Source: Flavobacterium supellecticarium (GTDB taxonomy: Bacteria; Bacteroidota; Bacteroidia; Flavobacteriales; Flavobacteriaceae). Taken from it: a DNA stretch of 64,000 bases. The notes under the pieces are model-generated. The model did not search any database and was not told the origin of the DNA. It saw only the letters and a program-made list of their open reading frames with translations. Positions 3,110 to 9,575 of this stretch are shown one piece after another (the stretch's first letter is position 1; every line of letters begins with the position of its first letter). The stretch covers positions 682,001 through 746,000 of the forward strand of contig NZ_SSNZ01000002.1 of the NCBI RefSeq assembly GCF_004801375.1, in the 5' to 3' direction. Made by a program: the position numbers and the translations under genes.

Positions 3110-3928
3110 ATGAAAAAAGTGATTTTTGGCATCTCCGCGATGCTGTTAACCGCAGGGGCATTTGCCCAATTTAATTTAAGTACTGTAAGCCAGACCGGAA
3201 TTGGGAACATGTCGAATGTAAACCAGGCAGGATTTTTAAATATTTCCGATGTTGATCAGCTAGGATTTTTCAATAATTCTGATGTGGATCAATTGGGAAT
3301 TTTAAATGGTTCTGATGTCGATCAGGTAGGATGGGGAAATGATGCCAGTGTAGCACAATGGGGCATTTTCAACCAATCATCCGTGTATCAGTTGGGCGCT
3401 TTTAACGATGCCAGCGTAACACAGATCGGTATTGCCAACAGTTCCGATATCCAACAAATCGGAATTGGAAACGATGCTTCCGTACTACAAGTAGGAACGC
3501 TTAATGATGCCAATGTATTACAGGTAGGAGCTGGAAACGATGCTGCTGTGATTCAGGTAGGTACTGCAAACGTAGCCGATCAGACTCAGTATGGAGTGGA
3601 CAATACGGCTTTGGCAGTACAAGCTGGAACCGGTAACTATTCCATGCAAATGCAAGTGGGTGAAGACAACACTGCGATGGCTTTCCAAACCGGAACCGGT
3701 AACCAATCCTACCAATTCCAGTTAGGTGAAGATAACATGGCGGTTCACACTCAGGACGGATTCTATAATACCGCAATTACAACTCAGGCCGGCGACGCAA
3801 ACCTTTCGTTAATTAATCAGGATGGTGCGTTAAACTTTGCCTGGACCAACCAAACTGGTTTAGGACAAATGAGTTTTGTAAACCAGGCTGGTATTGCTAA
3901 CGTATCTTTAGTAAACCAATCAAATTAA
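3110..3928 (+). CDS. csgA: Major curlin-like amyloid subunit (23 x 11-residue repeats)
   Basis: Extracellular amyloid fibre subunit. A signal peptide (1-19, ending GAFA) is followed by 253 residues that divide exactly into 23 units of 11 residues with consensus xxNxSxVxQxG (for example IGNMSNVNQAG, FFNNSDVDQLG, IGNDASVLQVG). This matches the curlin core motif Q-x-G-x-G-N-x-A-x3-Q, in which Asn and Gln ladders stack along a cross-beta solenoid. E. coli CsgA has five longer repeats, so this subunit is several times larger in repeat number. There is no C-terminal extension, because the last unit ends at the stop codon. Downstream genes encode CsgE, CsgF and CsgG homologues, which supports the call. 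The split between CsgA and CsgB roles with the next gene is inferred from size and regularity. Confidence 0.9.
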   Translation: MKKVIFGISAMLLTAGAFAQFNLSTVSQTGIGNMSNVNQAGFLNISDVDQLGFFNNSDVDQLGILNGSDVDQVGWGNDASVAQWGIFNQSSVYQLGAFNDASVTQIGIANSSDIQQIGIGNDASVLQVGTLNDANVLQVGAGNDAAVIQVGTANVADQTQYGVDNTALAVQAGTGNYSMQMQVGEDNTAMAFQTGTGNQSYQFQLGEDNMAVHTQDGFYNTAITTQAGDANLSLINQDGALNFAWTNQTGLGQMSFVNQAGIANVSLVNQSN

Positions 3929-3994: not shown

Positions 3995-4477
3995 ATGAAA
4001 AGGACGGTAACATTCGGATTACTGATGGTTTTGTTTTCCTGGAACCTTCAGGCACAGGACGAGCAGGATTTTAAACAATTCGGACTGCAAAAGCAGCAGG
4101 AGGCCATGCAAAAGGCTCAAAAAGAAAAAACCTTTTCAGGAAATAACAATGTTACGATTCAGCAGGTTGGTTATCAGAATTATACCAATATCGCCGTAAA
4201 AGCCCAACAATCCAACATCGATGTAAAACAGTTGGGAAACCAAAATAGCCTGGAGCTGTATAAAAATGCCAGGGAGATCAATCAGTCATTGATTCAGAGA
4301 GGAAACAACAACAACATCAATGACTTTTCCGCCAATCCGTATAGCGCGAGTAACAATCAGATACTCCAGTACGGAAACAATTTGAATTATACCAGTTACG
4401 GATCGAATTCGATATCCGATGACATGAAAATCATCCAAAGAGGGAATTCCGGATCCCTACTTATCTTAAACCGATAA
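3995..4477 (+). CDS. csgB: Curlin-like minor subunit / nucleator candidate
   Basis: A 160-residue secreted protein with a signal peptide ending in LQAQ (~21). After a Gln/Lys-rich segment (~25-46) come degenerate curlin-type units with NNNVTIQQVGYQN, VKQLGNQNS, LIQRGNNNN, ILQYGNN and IIQRGNSG. The repeats are irregular and interrupted, unlike those of the preceding gene. In enterobacteria the minor subunit CsgB nucleates CsgA polymerisation and is attached to the cell. The position after csgA and the weaker repeats make that role likely here, but it is inferred. It is 10 nt ahead of the CsgE gene. Confidence 0.75.
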   Translation: MKRTVTFGLLMVLFSWNLQAQDEQDFKQFGLQKQQEAMQKAQKEKTFSGNNNVTIQQVGYQNYTNIAVKAQQSNIDVKQLGNQNSLELYKNAREINQSLIQRGNNNNINDFSANPYSASNNQILQYGNNLNYTSYGSNSISDDMKIIQRGNSGSLLILNR

Positions 4478-4487
4478 CAGCGCCATC

Positions 4488-5204
4488 ATGAAACCAATCT
4501 ACCCACTTTTAGTACTACTGCTTGCCTTTTCATTTTCCGGTTATACTCAGATTATGAACAAAGAGGTTAAAGCCAAAATTGAAACGACAGAAATCGAAAA
4601 CATGCTATCGGTTACCGGAACGGCCGAAAATGTAACGGAAATACACAAAAGTTTGCGTTACAAACTAACGGTCATCAAAAAAAACAAAAGAAGTAAAAAC
4701 CTTTCAAACAACTCGCAGGACGGCCGGTTTACATTGGCGCCAAACGAAAAAAAAGTGCTGTCCAAAACCCAGGTGAACATTTCCAAAGAAGACGAAACCA
4801 TTCTGTTGTTACTCATTTACGACGAAGATGATAAAATTATCGGAAAAGACCGTATCGTGGTAGGCGAAAATGATAAAGCCGAACAACCTGCCGACGGACT
4901 GGAACTAATGGGAATTGTATCGGACGAAACCAAGACCAAGTTCGGAAAGGAATTCTACGACTATTTCTACGGTAAATATCAGGAAAAAAAACTCAATGCC
5001 CGTAAAATCGTAAAAATAGAAGAAGAGCTCAGTTTTGGTCGTACTACCCGAATCCGGGTGGTCATTGATAATGATTTGATAAACGAATTTGTTTCGCGAC
5101 CCGATGAGGATTTCCTGCTTTATATGGCTGAGGATTCCATCGCAAAATTGATCAAATATTTTCAGGACGTCGAAAAACAAAAAAACTATATAACACAGTA
5201 TTAA
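4488..5204 (+). CDS. csgE: CsgE-like curli transport protein with an N-terminal CsgH-like domain
   Basis: Periplasmic accessory of the curli secretion channel. A signal peptide (1-20) is followed by two domains. Residues ~22-125 look like a CsgH-type beta-sandwich: a core with SVTGTAENV, a central NSQDGRFTLAPNEKKVLSK stretch and IYDEDDKIIGKD, matching the QSG-F-LAAGE pattern of CsgH. Residues ~135-238 match CsgE, with DETKTKFGKEFYDYFYGKY, a central ELSFGRTTRIRVVID and a helical C-terminus. CsgE caps the CsgG pore and selects substrates, and CsgH of alphaproteobacteria prevents premature CsgA fibrillation. Joining both in one chain would combine export gating and anti-amyloid chaperoning. The CsgE part is fairly certain; the CsgH part rests on motif similarity. 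Confidence 0.8.
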   Translation: MKPIYPLLVLLLAFSFSGYTQIMNKEVKAKIETTEIENMLSVTGTAENVTEIHKSLRYKLTVIKKNKRSKNLSNNSQDGRFTLAPNEKKVLSKTQVNISKEDETILLLLIYDEDDKIIGKDRIVVGENDKAEQPADGLELMGIVSDETKTKFGKEFYDYFYGKYQEKKLNARKIVKIEEELSFGRTTRIRVVIDNDLINEFVSRPDEDFLLYMAEDSIAKLIKYFQDVEKQKNYITQY

Positions 5205-5220
5205 TGCCAGCTTTTGCCTT

Positions 5221-5673
5221 ATGAAAACAATCGTTTTTTTAGTGATGATGACGCTTTCCGGAGTGTATGCAATGGCACAGGATTTGGTTTACAAACCGAT
5301 AAATCCGGCCTTTGGAGGCGACACCTTTAATTACCAGTGGTTACTCAATTCTGCCGATTCGCAGAACAAGTTTAAAGAACCGACAAGCGATTTGTACAAA
5401 CCGCAGACAGAATTGGAACGATTTAAAGAAAATTTAAACAACCAGTTGTTAAACTATATATCGCGTTCACTATTTCAGCAACAATACGGCGACGGTACTG
5501 CAACAGGAGGTACCGGCACAGGCACGGGCACGGGTACCGGTGGACTTCAGCAGGGAACCTATGTTTTTGGAAGCCTTTCGGTCGAAATATACCCGTCCAA
5601 TCTCGGTGTCGTTGTAAACATACTCGATATCACAACCGGAGAACAAACACAAGTCATCATTCCAGGGAATTAA
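5221..5673 (+). CDS. csgF: CsgF-like curli assembly protein
   Basis: Secreted assembly factor that in E. coli binds the outer face of the CsgG pore and links it to the nucleator. A signal peptide ending AMAQ (~20) precedes the diagnostic CsgF start: DLVYKPINPAFGGDTFNYQW then LLNSADSQNKFK, close to the E. coli FRNPNFGGNP and LLNSAQAQN segments. The central helix is ERFKENLNNQLLNYISRSLF. Then comes a Gly-Thr run (~94-108) absent from the E. coli protein, and a C-terminal beta region ending in GEQTQVIIPGN, like the E. coli TGQTSTIQV strand. The stop codon is 1 nt from the csgG start. Confidence 0.9.
   Translation: MKTIVFLVMMTLSGVYAMAQDLVYKPINPAFGGDTFNYQWLLNSADSQNKFKEPTSDLYKPQTELERFKENLNNQLLNYISRSLFQQQYGDGTATGGTGTGTGTGTGGLQQGTYVFGSLSVEIYPSNLGVVVNILDITTGEQTQVIIPGN
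5506..5543 (+). repeat. Short tandem GGnACn repeat inside csgF
   Basis: About six imperfect 6-bp units encode a Gly-Thr run in CsgF. In-frame length variation by slippage is possible, since each unit is two codons. Confidence 0.6.
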
Positions 5674-5674
5674 T

Positions 5675-7111
5675 ATGAAAAGAGCACCATTACTTTCGTT
5701 ATTACTGGTACTGACCTTATCGGGTTGCGGCGCTTATTTTAACCAACCGGTAGGCGTCGAAAAAGCTGCCATCGGTGAGCCAACCCCGTCAACCAGTGCC
5801 TTAAAATCGCTACCGCCTCCTAAGGAACCGGTGGTGATCGGAGTCTATAAATTCAGAGATCAAACCGGACAATACAAACCCACCGAAACGGGAAGTACTT
5901 TTAGTACGGCCGTTACGCAGGGTGCGACCTCTATCCTGATAAAAGCATTGGAAGATTCCAAATGGTTTACGCCCATTGAAAGGGAAAACCTGGCAAACCT
6001 GATGAACGAACGCAATATTATCCGTTCTACCCGACAGGAATACAATAAAGATCAGAATGCGCCCGAAATGCAATTGGCGCCCTTGCTCTATGCCGGTGTA
6101 TTGTTGGAAGGTGGCGTGATTTCATACGATTCAAATATCATTACCGGTGGCTATGGCGCACGTTATTTTGGCGCAGGCGGATCGACCCGTTACAAACAGG
6201 ATCGGATTACGATTTATCTACGTCTGGTGTCGACTTCAAACGGGAAAATATTGAAAACGATTTATGTTTCGAAAACAATTTTGTCGCAATCGGTTGATGC
6301 GAGCCTGTTTCGCTATGTCGATTTTAAACGATTGTTGGAAGTGGAAACCGGATTTACAAAAAACGAACCCATTCAGATGGCGATTACCGAGGCTATCGAA
6401 AAAGGAGTGGAAGGGCTTATTATTGAAGGAATCCGCGATAATATCTGGGAGGCCAAAGCACCCATTGCGAAGTTAACAGAATTGATCAACAATTATGATG
6501 CGGAAAAACAGGATGCCGATGTCTCCGGATTATACGGTCGGCATTTCACCGAACGCCGGGCGCGTTATGGTATTGAAATCGGAGGCGGAACAACATTAAT
6601 CAATGGTGATTATCCGAATGCCGAATTAAAACCGATGATCCGCGGTGGATTAAAATATTTTTTCTGGCCCAATTTTAACATGACCGCTTCGTTAAGTCCG
6701 TCGTGGTTTGGGAATAAAAATTACCTCGATGTGGGCTATCTCATTGGCGATTTGAATTTCGAATTACTGGTTTTACCCTACGATCGGTGTACGCCTTATA
6801 TCTACGGTGGTGGCGGATTGGGAATTAACAGCGCCTATGAAAATTTGCATACGAAAATACAGTTTGGTTTGGGCGTGGAATATCTGCTGACGGATAACTT
6901 CGGTATAAAACTCTACGGCGAAAACAATATTACCTTTTCGGATAAAGTCGATTATCTGGTGATGGGGAAAAGAGACGATTATTATTGGCGTTTTGGAGCC
7001 GGGATTACCTATTATTTTCCAAAACAAAAGTATCCCAATAAAGCAATGAAAAAACATGTGGAAGAAAGTAAACGCGGTACAGGTTATACCAACGGCTTTC
7101 CGGAAAACTAA
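5675..7111 (+). CDS. csgG: CsgG-like curli secretion channel with a C-terminal beta-barrel extension
   Basis: Outer-membrane lipoprotein that forms the curli export pore. The lipobox is LTLSGC, with Cys18. Residues ~50-280 match CsgG: VVIGVYKFRDQTGQYKPT, a TAVTQGATSILIKAL stretch, then WFTPIERENLANLMNERNII and the transmembrane hairpin region around ISYDSNIITGGYGARYFG. E. coli CsgG ends after ~277 residues. Here residues ~290-460 add an alternating beta pattern (RYGIEIGGGT, GGLKYFFWPNFNMTASLSP, YIYGGGGLGINS, FGAGITYYFP) typical of small OmpA/OmpW-like barrels. The pore and a second barrel would thus be one polypeptide. It is 12 nt before the next gene, in the same operon. Confidence 0.88.
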   Translation: MKRAPLLSLLLVLTLSGCGAYFNQPVGVEKAAIGEPTPSTSALKSLPPPKEPVVIGVYKFRDQTGQYKPTETGSTFSTAVTQGATSILIKALEDSKWFTPIERENLANLMNERNIIRSTRQEYNKDQNAPEMQLAPLLYAGVLLEGGVISYDSNIITGGYGARYFGAGGSTRYKQDRITIYLRLVSTSNGKILKTIYVSKTILSQSVDASLFRYVDFKRLLEVETGFTKNEPIQMAITEAIEKGVEGLIIEGIRDNIWEAKAPIAKLTELINNYDAEKQDADVSGLYGRHFTERRARYGIEIGGGTTLINGDYPNAELKPMIRGGLKYFFWPNFNMTASLSPSWFGNKNYLDVGYLIGDLNFELLVLPYDRCTPYIYGGGGLGINSAYENLHTKIQFGLGVEYLLTDNFGIKLYGENNITFSDKVDYLVMGKRDDYYWRFGAGITYYFPKQKYPNKAMKKHVEESKRGTGYTNGFPEN

Positions 7112-7122
7112 AAGAAAGGGAT

Positions 7123-8610
7123 ATGAAAATAGTAATCAGAATAGGACTGTTGCTAACGCTTTTGGGTATCGCATGGTCTTGCAGTCAGGAAGAATTTATT
7201 GAAAAAGGCCAGGGAATCGTTAAGGGAAGAGTCGTCGAATCGGAAACGTTTACACCCATTGCCAACGCCCGGGTATCGTCCAGTCCAAGTACTAGTACGG
7301 TTTTTACCGATTCGTCGGGTTATTATACCGTGACTCAGGTGAACGAAGGCGATTATTCGTTCGAAGCCCGAAAAGACGGTTATATCGCCAAATTCGAGGC
7401 GGTACACGTAAACACCGGCGGAACGACCGAAATGGTTTTTGAACTGGTGAAACAACAACAAAATAATTTGCCGCCAACGGTTCCGGTGTTGACCACGCCA
7501 ACCGATAATGCGTTGGATCAGTCGCTGGAAGTAACCCTTAAATGGACGTGTACCGATCCGGAACAGGATGCACTTACCTATAAGGTTACGCTACGAAACG
7601 ATACGAGCAATAGTGTCGTGACCTATGATGCTATTACGACGACCAGCTTTACGCTGACGAATCTGAATTATAGCACCAAATATTATTGGCAGGTTACGGC
7701 GAACGACGGCATTAATGCAGATGTGAACAGTCTTACGAGTTCGTTCCGAACGCTGATGTTTCCGAATGCCCGGTATCTTTTTGTTCGGAAAGCCGGTGAC
7801 AACAATGTGATTTTTACCGCCGATGATGCCGGAAATGAATTGCAGATCACCTCAGATGCAACCAATAGCTTCCGACCGCGCAAAAACACCCAGGCCAACA
7901 AAATTGCGTTTATCAGAACTACTGGCGGACAAGGGCATATTTACACGATGCGTCCCGACGGTTCCAGCGAATTTAAAGTGACAAGCAATGTTCCGGTGGC
8001 TGGGTTTAATCTGGATTATTACAATTACTGTTGGCGCGCCAATGGTAGTCAGCTGATTTATTCCAATTTCGATAAACTCTACCGAATTAATGCCGATGGT
8101 AGTGGCTTAATCCAATTGTACCAAACACCAAATGGGAAATTTATATCGGAATGCGACTGGAGTTACGACGGCAATCGTATTGCGCTTAAAGTGAATGATC
8201 TTAGCGGTTATAATGTTGAAATTTATGTGATTGATATGTCCGGAAATGTCGTTGCAAATGTGTTATCCGGCTTTAATGGTGCCGCCGGAGGCTTACATTT
8301 GTCTGTAAATAATACCAAACTGGTATTTACCCGAGACGTTTCCGGTTACCAAAGTAGCGATTACCGTCAGTTGGACAACCGCATATTTATGTACGATTTT
8401 ACAAACAGTACAACAACCGAAGTCGCGGTGCAACGTCCGGCCGGATACAACGATCTGGATGTACGCTTTTCACCAAATGAAGCCGAACTGATCTTTGTGA
8501 GTACGTCCAACGATGGCGTATCGCCGCGAACGATAACAAAATATACGATGGGAACATCGAATTCCCGGACAGCACTGTTTAGCAACGGTGTGATGCCCGA
8601 CTGGAAATAA
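7123..8610 (+). CDS. Lipoprotein: carboxypeptidase-regulatory-like, FnIII-like and TolB-like propeller domains
   Basis: Lipoprotein of 495 residues with lipobox GIAWSC (Cys20). Domain order from the sequence: a carboxypeptidase regulatory-like beta-sandwich (~32-112, with GRVVESETFTPIANARV), an FnIII/Ig-like segment (~115-212, with TLKWTCTDPEQDALTYKV and YYWQVTANDG) and a TolB/WD40-like propeller (~216-495) with repeated blades such as IYTMRPDGSSEFKVT, LYRINADGSGLIQL and IYVIDMSGNVVAN. No enzyme motif is visible. It is 11 nt after csgG and before a terminator, so it belongs to the curli-like operon. A cell-surface or periplasmic scaffold for fibres is a guess from context. Confidence 0.75.
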   Translation: MKIVIRIGLLLTLLGIAWSCSQEEFIEKGQGIVKGRVVESETFTPIANARVSSSPSTSTVFTDSSGYYTVTQVNEGDYSFEARKDGYIAKFEAVHVNTGGTTEMVFELVKQQQNNLPPTVPVLTTPTDNALDQSLEVTLKWTCTDPEQDALTYKVTLRNDTSNSVVTYDAITTTSFTLTNLNYSTKYYWQVTANDGINADVNSLTSSFRTLMFPNARYLFVRKAGDNNVIFTADDAGNELQITSDATNSFRPRKNTQANKIAFIRTTGGQGHIYTMRPDGSSEFKVTSNVPVAGFNLDYYNYCWRANGSQLIYSNFDKLYRINADGSGLIQLYQTPNGKFISECDWSYDGNRIALKVNDLSGYNVEIYVIDMSGNVVANVLSGFNGAAGGLHLSVNNTKLVFTRDVSGYQSSDYRQLDNRIFMYDFTNSTTTEVAVQRPAGYNDLDVRFSPNEAELIFVSTSNDGVSPRTITKYTMGTSNSRTALFSNGVMPDWK

Positions 8611-8747: not shown

Positions 8748-9575
8748 ATGAGATCGTTTTTAGCCCTTTTTCTGTTCCTTGCGGCCGCGTTTAACGCATC
8801 GGCACAGGAATCATTTGTTGTCTATTTCGAAAGCAACAAACACGAACCAAATAAAAAAGAAATGCTCCGACTGGAAAGCTGGATGCAACAAAATGCCACA
8901 TCCAAAATCGTCGCGATTAACGGCTTTACCGACGAAGATGGAACCACGGCCTATAACGATACGCTGGCTCAGAAACGGGTGTCCTTTATTTATGATCTGG
9001 TAAAAGAAAAAGTAAAAACCCGTGACGATTTTAAAACGCGCAGTTTCGGGGAAAGTCATAAACAATCTAAAATCAAAGCCGAAAACCGGAAAGTAACCAT
9101 CCATTATATTTTGGCGAAAGACCTGTCGCGGGAAAATGAAATATTAGGAATTAAACCGGTTACCGAGGTCAAACGAGTGGAATTACCGCTTGATGCTTCA
9201 TTGACCATGCGCGTGGAAAACGCCCGGGTTGGGGACAAACTAAAACTCGAGAATCTTAATTTTTACGAAAATACCTTTGCTATTTTACCCGAATCCCGAC
9301 CGAAAATGTTTGAATTACTGGAGATCATGAAAAAGAATCCGAAACTAAAAATCCAGATTCAGGGACATATCTGCTGTATGCCAAACGATCGGGCCGATTT
9401 GTCGACCAAACGCGCCAAAGCCATCCGAATGTTTTTGGAAGCACACGGAATCGATAAAAGCCGGGCGACCTTTAAAGGATTCGGAAGTACACAACCGATC
9501 AATCCGCTACCGGAGAAAAATGAAGAAGAGCGCGCGGCCAACAGAAGAGTGGAAATTGAAATCATAGAAAACTAA
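8748..9575 (+). CDS. Tandem OmpA-domain peptidoglycan-binding protein
   Basis: Secreted 275-residue protein with signal peptide ending NASAQ (~20). It holds two OmpA C-terminal domains. The first (~22-120) has VYFESNKHEPNKKEMLRLES and INGFTDEDGTTAYNDTLAQKR. The second (~165-272) has IQIQGHICCMPNDRADLSTK and GFGSTQPINPLPEKNEEERA then NRRVEIEI. OmpA domains bind the diaminopimelate of peptidoglycan. The second domain keeps the NRRVEI signature and an Asp-Arg pair; the first is more divergent. It lies 137 nt past the propeller lipoprotein, across a hairpin, so it may be a separate unit or read-through from the curli-like operon. An anchoring role for the amyloid apparatus is inferred only from position. 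Confidence 0.82.
   Translation: MRSFLALFLFLAAAFNASAQESFVVYFESNKHEPNKKEMLRLESWMQQNATSKIVAINGFTDEDGTTAYNDTLAQKRVSFIYDLVKEKVKTRDDFKTRSFGESHKQSKIKAENRKVTIHYILAKDLSRENEILGIKPVTEVKRVELPLDASLTMRVENARVGDKLKLENLNFYENTFAILPESRPKMFELLEIMKKNPKLKIQIQGHICCMPNDRADLSTKRAKAIRMFLEAHGIDKSRATFKGFGSTQPINPLPEKNEEERAANRRVEIEIIEN

Follow-up and report, generated by a model that had tools for sequence, protein, structure and literature searches.

The locus raises the question of how a curlin subunit that consists of short, regular repeats and has no N-terminal targeting segment would be secreted and assembled, and whether the number of its repeats is of consequence. We examined this for a gene in the window (a 64,000-nucleotide stretch of the Flavobacterium supellecticarium genome) and for related loci in other genomes.

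A regular curlin in a flavobacterial curli operon

The genes of the locus stand in the order csgA, csgB-like, CsgC/H-like–csgE, csgF, csgG and a lipoprotein gene, and constitute a flavobacterial curli operon. Downstream of csgA, on the same strand (4488–7111), CsgE, CsgF and CsgG all score above their Pfam cut-offs. The features are as follows.

3110–3928, + strand: csgA, encoding the major curlin subunit of 272 aa (a signal peptide, then 23 units of 11)
3110–3166, + strand: csgA signal peptide, 19 residues, cleavage assumed between A and Q (A/Q) from the sequence and from relatives
3167–3925, + strand: csgA repeat array, 23 units of 11 residues, spacing regular throughout
3860–3925, + strand: last two csgA units, LGQMSFVNQAG and IANVSLVNQSN, counterparts of the conserved C-terminal end of relatives
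3995–4477, + strand: degenerate curlin-like protein, candidate nucleator (csgB-like); NCBIfam CsgA model at 18.4 bits, far under its cut-off
4488–5204, + strand: CsgC/CsgH-like domain (about residues 25–126) fused to a CsgE domain (residues 140–233)
5221–5673, + strand: csgF (PF10614, 122.9 bits)
5675–7111, + strand: csgG with about 200 extra C-terminal residues (PF03783, 213.3 bits, residues 46–260 of 478)
7123–8610, + strand: lipoprotein-like gene, kept beside csgG in relatives

Behind MKKVIFGISAMLLTAGAFA, the mature CsgA protein comprises 253 residues, which is 23 × 11 with remainder 0, a count that depends on cleavage after residue 19 as assigned by the A/Q rule. The putative Sec signal peptide looks typical by eye, and relatives back the cleavage site, as repeats start at such sites in the survey of curlin open reading frames described below. 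Asn occupies position 3 in 22 of the 23 units, Gln position 9 in all 23 and Gly position 11 in 22; Asn and Gln are in phase in 22 units, compared with 5 in the best of 10,000 residue shuffles. Self-identity is 0.43 at a lag of 11 residues and 0.48 at a lag of 22, and does not exceed 0.12 at any lag from 1 to 66 that is not a multiple of 11. The periodicity is not due to chance, and the phase, shuffle and lag tests agree in confirming the earlier note on this DNA, which had described a signal peptide of 19 residues followed by exactly 23 units of 11. The final two units depart from the pattern: Gln replaces Asn in the one before last, and the last closes with Ser-Asn instead of x-Gly.

The identification of the product as a curlin subunit also holds. 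Its units are tandem curlin repeats of the form N-x5-Q-x-G. PF07012 (Curlin_rpt) matches CsgA at 4.9 × 10−25 over ten stretches (87.6 bits against a cut-off of 20.7), and its two matches in the 3.85 Mb genome both lie inside csgA; csg genes follow downstream; and a phmmer comparison with solved proteins gives the curlin R15.5 (8C50) at 7.8 × 10−26 and the E. coli CsgA fibril (8ENQ) at 4 × 10−5. A Flavobacterium luminosum protein has 51% identity to CsgA in its best segment, with query residues 1–272 matched. Because the known curlin repeat has 22 residues and two strands, CsgA corresponds to 11.5 repeats and would form a solenoid of 11.5 turns. The repeats of E. coli CsgA had been called longer, which does not stand, as each repeat of ~22 residues holds two such strands.

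Several properties are shared with many curlins. These proteins hold 4 to 62 repeats of ~23 residues with two strands each, they end in full or half repeats, and regular examples have already been described (Sleutel et al. 2023, PMC10192328); a 2025 review gives 3 to 52 repeats (PMC12822426). A segment like N22, the targeting segment of E. coli CsgA, is an exception among curlins, and its absence is usual (PMC10192328). Regularity, repeat number and the missing targeting segment are therefore known for the class (PMC10192328, PMC3521004, PMC12822426). The earlier reading of the gene thus turns out half right: the targeting segment is indeed absent, as the first repeat begins at the assumed cleavage site, and the question of how CsgG recognizes the protein for export is a fair one, but in the available text of PMC10192328 the lack of N22 is no peculiarity, and the proposed clean model amyloid is not new, since the longer, regular R15.5 with 31 strands already has a cryo-EM entry (8C50). 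The repeat array is genuine, and the protein adds an ordinary example to the regular curlins.

The other operon products have features of their own. The 3995–4477 product has no Pfam match over cut-off. In CsgF, a Gly/Thr-rich insert splits the Pfam match, which is also split in seven other genomes of the genus. The ~200 extra C-terminal residues of CsgG bear a weak likeness to outer-membrane barrels (PagL 0.019, OMP_b-brl 0.12, PorG 0.00055), and the CsgG open reading frame has 446–515 residues in 140 of the 141 found. CarboxypepD_reg and fn3 domains and a weak TolB match occur in the lipoprotein-like product, whose gene lies at most 300 bases after csgG on the same strand in 136 of the 141 csgG loci; the contig ends first in two of the remaining five. 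Among 60 genomes, including the window's own, CsgE occurs in 10, and exactly these have a full-length match to this product, two others having partial matches only; the gene is a possible unnamed curli component. An OmpA-family gene downstream of the operon (8748–9575) has similar counterparts in only 3 of 61 other loci (L003, L044 and L048).

Odd strand numbers among relatives

At genus level, 72 of 299 genomes have a CsgF match; at family level the figure is 68 of 299 and at class level 12 of 395, and all three include the window's own genome. Of the 146 other genomes, 140 contributed one region apiece; with the window and locus L003 this gave 142 loci, 138 of which contain a total of 172 distinct curlin open reading frames. 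For the 164 curlins with an A/Q site, the first repeat lies within −1 to 2 residues of the site in 110, is preceded by 3–14 residues in 24 and by at least 15 in 29, and falls outside these bins in one. Seventy-six curlins are solenoids from cleavage site to C end; strand parity was scored in 48 of these, the other 28 having longer inserts, and the csgB-like gene, which would pass as perfect with a single unit, was left out of the counts.

All 24 curlins without irregular spacing have an odd number of strands: 17 (one protein), 19 (eight), 21 (one), 23 (eleven), 25 (one), 29 (one) and 47 (one). The same is true of 35 of 35 curlins when inserts of up to 4 residues are allowed (17 to 47 strands) and of 43 of 48 with inserts of up to 10. 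Two of the five scored as even (L163 and L164) contain a 10-residue stretch that, on inspection by eye, we take for a strand lacking one residue; three stay even, namely one copy each in L070 and L088, plus L074. Two to four tandem curlin genes occur at L069, L073, L083, L088 and other loci, and the even-stranded curlins of L070 and L088 are copies in such tandems.

The 35 regular curlins come from 34 loci, and on a quick tree of CsgE, CsgF and CsgG from these loci the number of strands changes at least 11 times (10 is the fewest possible, given 11 values), and 11 even steps would arise with a chance of ~1 in 2,000 if odd and even steps were equally likely, in a subset that was chosen for regularity. 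In the group near the window in the FastTree phylogeny of 72 loci described below, L003, L044, L149 and L159 also have 23 strands, L116 has 21 and L048 is irregular.

A possible structural reason is available. With an odd strand number both end strands lie on one sheet, which leaves a half turn between subunits as the only way to join them head to tail, and the half turn requires similar inward-facing residues in both sheets, as is stated for odd curlins in PMC10192328. The same paper reports that R15.5, with 31 strands, stacks head to tail with a half turn, and it defines a class, termed centrosymmetric, in which the two strands have similar inward residues. The odd number in regular curlins, a modest new regularity in these sequences, fits this known stacking; neither the available text of PMC10192328 nor a literature search yielded a rule of this kind.

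The strand number may instead be without function, a view to which we give somewhat less than an even chance: genes would change in steps of 66 bp (22 residues), as units two apart are more alike, and an odd ancestor would remain odd. Identity at a lag of 66 exceeds that at 33 in the DNA of 20 of the 24 perfect genes (means 0.547 and 0.513), identity at a lag of 22 exceeds that at 11 in 23 of the 24 proteins, and outer-face residues alternate in sign with a period of two in 33 of the 35 regular curlins tested singly. The DNA difference is small, however, so that slips of 33 bp would be expected too, yet none is fixed among the 35, an absence that fits selection against sheet swapping as well as it fits a mutation bias. 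Steps of 66 bp explain the parity nearly as well as function does.

We also compared odd and even interior units of the 35 regular curlins, pooled, using 500 permutations, with a significance that is overstated because the species are related. Outward positions 1, 2, 4, 8 and 10 differ (0–1 of 500 permutations as high), as do inward positions 3 and 7 (12 and 0 of 500), whereas inward positions 5 and 9 do not. In the pooled set the cores of the two sheets are thus not fully alike, as positions 3 and 7 alternate. Taken by itself, the window CsgA shows no significant difference between odd and even units (P = 0.13 for eight non-anchor positions, P = 0.15 for six outward positions). From these sequence comparisons, the evolving unit seems to be a 22-residue turn with two different outer faces, in which case a change by one strand would swap the faces of everything behind it.

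Proposed secretion, fold and stacking of CsgA

To the observed gene, operon, repeat structure, odd strand number and likeness to 8C50, known relatives add by analogy a secretion route, a fold, fibre formation and screw stacking. The reading that we favour, with a probability of about 0.9, is that the gene is the csgA of a flavobacterial curli operon and that its product is exported by CsgG, forms a 23-strand β-solenoid and stacks head to tail in a screw. The precursor would be passed to Sec and remain unfolded in the periplasm; it would then exit through CsgG and fold outside the cell into a β-solenoid with 23 strands in two sheets and 11.5 turns, and subunits would stack head to tail, each turned by half a rotation relative to the last (2_1 screw), in the way that others demonstrated for R15.5. 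The similar inward residues that a half turn needs in both sheets are largely present in CsgA. An AlphaFold2 model of CsgA from the single sequence is poor (mean pLDDT of 52), and its best Foldseek match, 8C50 (E value of 0.16), is given no weight here.

The closest solved counterpart, R15.5, is the CsgA of Pontibacter korlensis (A0A0E3UX01, PDB 8C50) and resembles the window protein in its regular repeats, odd strand number and half-repeat ending, with 31 strands compared with 23. E. coli CsgA (PDB 8ENQ) has curlin repeats, csg genes and CsgG export in common with the window system; it has five full repeats, unlike sheet cores and N22, whereas the window CsgA has 11.5 repeats and no N22.

It is improbable that the gene encodes a CsgB-type nucleator or a non-amyloid surface adhesin rather than the major subunit. 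The NCBIfam CsgB model does outscore the CsgA model on the 3110–3928 product (152.8 bits with a cut-off of 165, and 84.1 with a cut-off of 160), but both remain below cut-off, the shorter degenerate curlin-like gene directly after csgA is the better nucleator candidate, and the best solved match is the curlin R15.5. Even less credible is a division by 11 that is perfect only by coincidence of where the signal peptide was cut, for although the site comes from the A/Q rule, 24 of the 164 A/Q-site curlins have no irregular spacing, with repeats that begin precisely at the site and stop no more than one residue from the C end.

Conserved end units

Among the 94 curlins whose repeats reach the C end, the penultimate unit has His for Asn in 63 and the C end is Ser-Asn in 54. 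Before the last two units His replaces Asn in just 55 of 2,145 units, 16 of which are fourth from the end. The window CsgA has Gln at the penultimate His/Asn position and shares the Ser-Asn end; at the corresponding place near the C end R15.5 has Asn and many relatives have His, and the last repeats of R15.5 align with similar ones in a relative (L076). When the set is thinned to 22 sequences, outward positions have an identity of 0.30 in the first unit and 0.26 in the last, compared with 0.10 for random interior pairs, a contrast that is partly an artefact, because end units are aligned to their true counterparts and interior units of proteins of differing lengths are not. First-unit identity also owes part to the fixed Gln behind the cleavage site. 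Conserved end units are a modest new regularity and are candidates for interfaces or recognition.

A CsgC/CsgH-like domain fused to CsgE

The domain preceding CsgE in the window csgE product matches CsgH at 1.5 × 10−8 (34.6 bits, cut-off 35) and CsgC at 0.0077. Across 57 of the 62 fused CsgE proteins found, 43 match CsgH, 11 CsgC and 56 the NCBIfam CsgE model at E ≤ 0.01; with Pfam at E ≤ 0.1, CsgE is matched in all 57, CsgC in 11 and CsgH in 2. A profile of the 57 finds CsgE 2na4 at 9.1 × 10−10 and two CsgC sequences at ~0.005.

The predicted model of the csgE product has a mean pLDDT of 56 and is fair only in the N-terminal domain (59–89 by block over residues 21–130), where it has seven strands. 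Foldseek places CsgC 2xsk first (1.1 × 10−5) and CsgH 2n59 second (5.3 × 10−5) among PDB entries, with unrelated Ig-like domains close behind from 1.4 × 10−4, and VIA-align gives a Z score of 11.7 for 2xsk, tied with domains of unrelated enzymes. The domain is accordingly modelled as a seven-stranded sandwich, like CsgC and CsgH (PDB 2XSK and 2N59; PMC4838910). It differs from both in being fused to CsgE and free of cysteine: CsgC has a CxC motif and CsgH a distant cysteine pair (PMC4838910), and residues 1–135 of the csgE product contain neither. For want of these marks we call the domain CsgC/H-like and not a member of CsgC or CsgH.

Curli are known in Bacteroidetes, from which csgC was reported absent (Dueholm et al. 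2012, PMC3521004), and the window csgE carries a CsgC/CsgH-like domain despite that report. CsgH-like sequences have been noted in Bacteroidetes (Taylor et al. 2016, PMC4838910); the available text of PMC4838910 and PMC5135000, and a literature search, gave no mention of a fusion of such a domain to CsgE.

Two ideas about the domain were set aside. Charge attraction, published for CsgC and CsgA, was not confirmed: curlins are acidic (net charge of −21 for the window CsgA; 4 of 164 positive), but a basic character is not general among the CsgC/H-like domains (+3 in the window, mean of −0.7 for the 57, compared with a mean of +2.9 for the CsgE domain). Nor does the one-frame csgE fusion explain loss of N22, as there is no clear correlation. 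Curlins start at the cleavage site in 86 of 127 cases at loci with the fused form (34 have an extension of at least 3 residues), in 20 of 39 at loci of the ‘short’ class, which includes 8 loci from other families of the class (18 with an extension), and in 4 of 6 at loci without a CsgE open reading frame of 60 aa (one with an extension). Regular solenoids account for 35 of the 127 curlins in one-frame csgE loci and none of the 45 in others, an association that follows clades and so permits no causal conclusion.

Two-frame csgE genes in relatives

Both the CsgC/H-like and CsgE domains were located in 136 of the 142 loci, and the CsgE domain alone in six. The two share a frame in 100 loci, including the window, and occupy two frames of one gene in 34; at L168 and L171 the matches are ~5 kb apart. 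In all 34 two-frame loci, which fall between L105 and L147 (for example, L107:7359–8089), the junction is exactly ten A residues followed by G, preceded by G in 30 and C in 4, and it is the −1 frame that encodes the CsgE domain. This A10-G run is absent from the csgE gene of the window. In 28 of the 34 the CsgE domain begins at residue 1 to 11 of its open reading frame, which leaves no room for a signal peptide; in the other six no CsgE open reading frame of at least 60 aa was found.

The Lys codon that closes the run is AAG in 34 of 34 loci, in domains in which AAA makes up 82% of Lys codons. Neither domain looks decayed, as both change mostly at third codon positions of their own frames. One run length found 34 times should not come from random length change or from sequencing error; six of the genomes are in one contig (L107, L118, L122, L134, L135 and L137). 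A FastTree phylogeny of 72 loci requires four changes to account for the split form. A run of 9 to 11 A close to the junction is also present in 7 of 72 one-frame loci. The 61 genus loci L104–L164 contain 56 runs of exactly ten A or T, of which 34 or more are at the csgE junction. RNA structure downstream of the run is suggestive (mean z score of −1.5, with 8 of 34 below −2), and Shine–Dalgarno-like 4-mers lie upstream in 6 of 34. A frame-0 stop close to the run was rejected as a sign of recoding, because loci without the run have stops at a similar distance in the other frame.

Recoding at A runs of the dnaX and mxiE type allows one gene to give two products. The csgE genes of the 34 relatives may behave likewise, and the run looks like a site of programmed slippage, by RNA polymerase or ribosome, that would yield the chaperone-like domain alone as well as the CsgE fusion; the window csgE has no such run. 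We found no prior report of slippage at a csgE A run in the literature search.

Implications

For recognition by CsgG and CsgE there are two candidates, the conserved end units and the CsgC/H-like domain joined to CsgE. We tentatively suggest, at somewhat less than even odds, that in curli of the Flavobacterium type a chaperone–adaptor, the CsgC/H-like–CsgE fusion, holds odd-stranded curlins without N22 in an unfolded state and passes them to CsgG, reading the repeats or end units in place of N22, and that A10-G slippage in many sister species sets the ratio of free chaperone to fusion, both being made from one gene, the window genome making the fusion only. The fused csgE bears on how a secretion channel handles an amyloid without a targeting segment, and slippage, if true, would be a recoding event that sets chaperone dose. 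These side findings on csgE may matter more than the curlin itself, and the fused and two-frame gene merits its own study. For the curlins, parity ties the structure of the gene to the symmetry of the fibre in a simple way that can be tested: were the odd number under selection, a gain or loss of one strand should spoil assembly, whereas a gain or loss of two should not.
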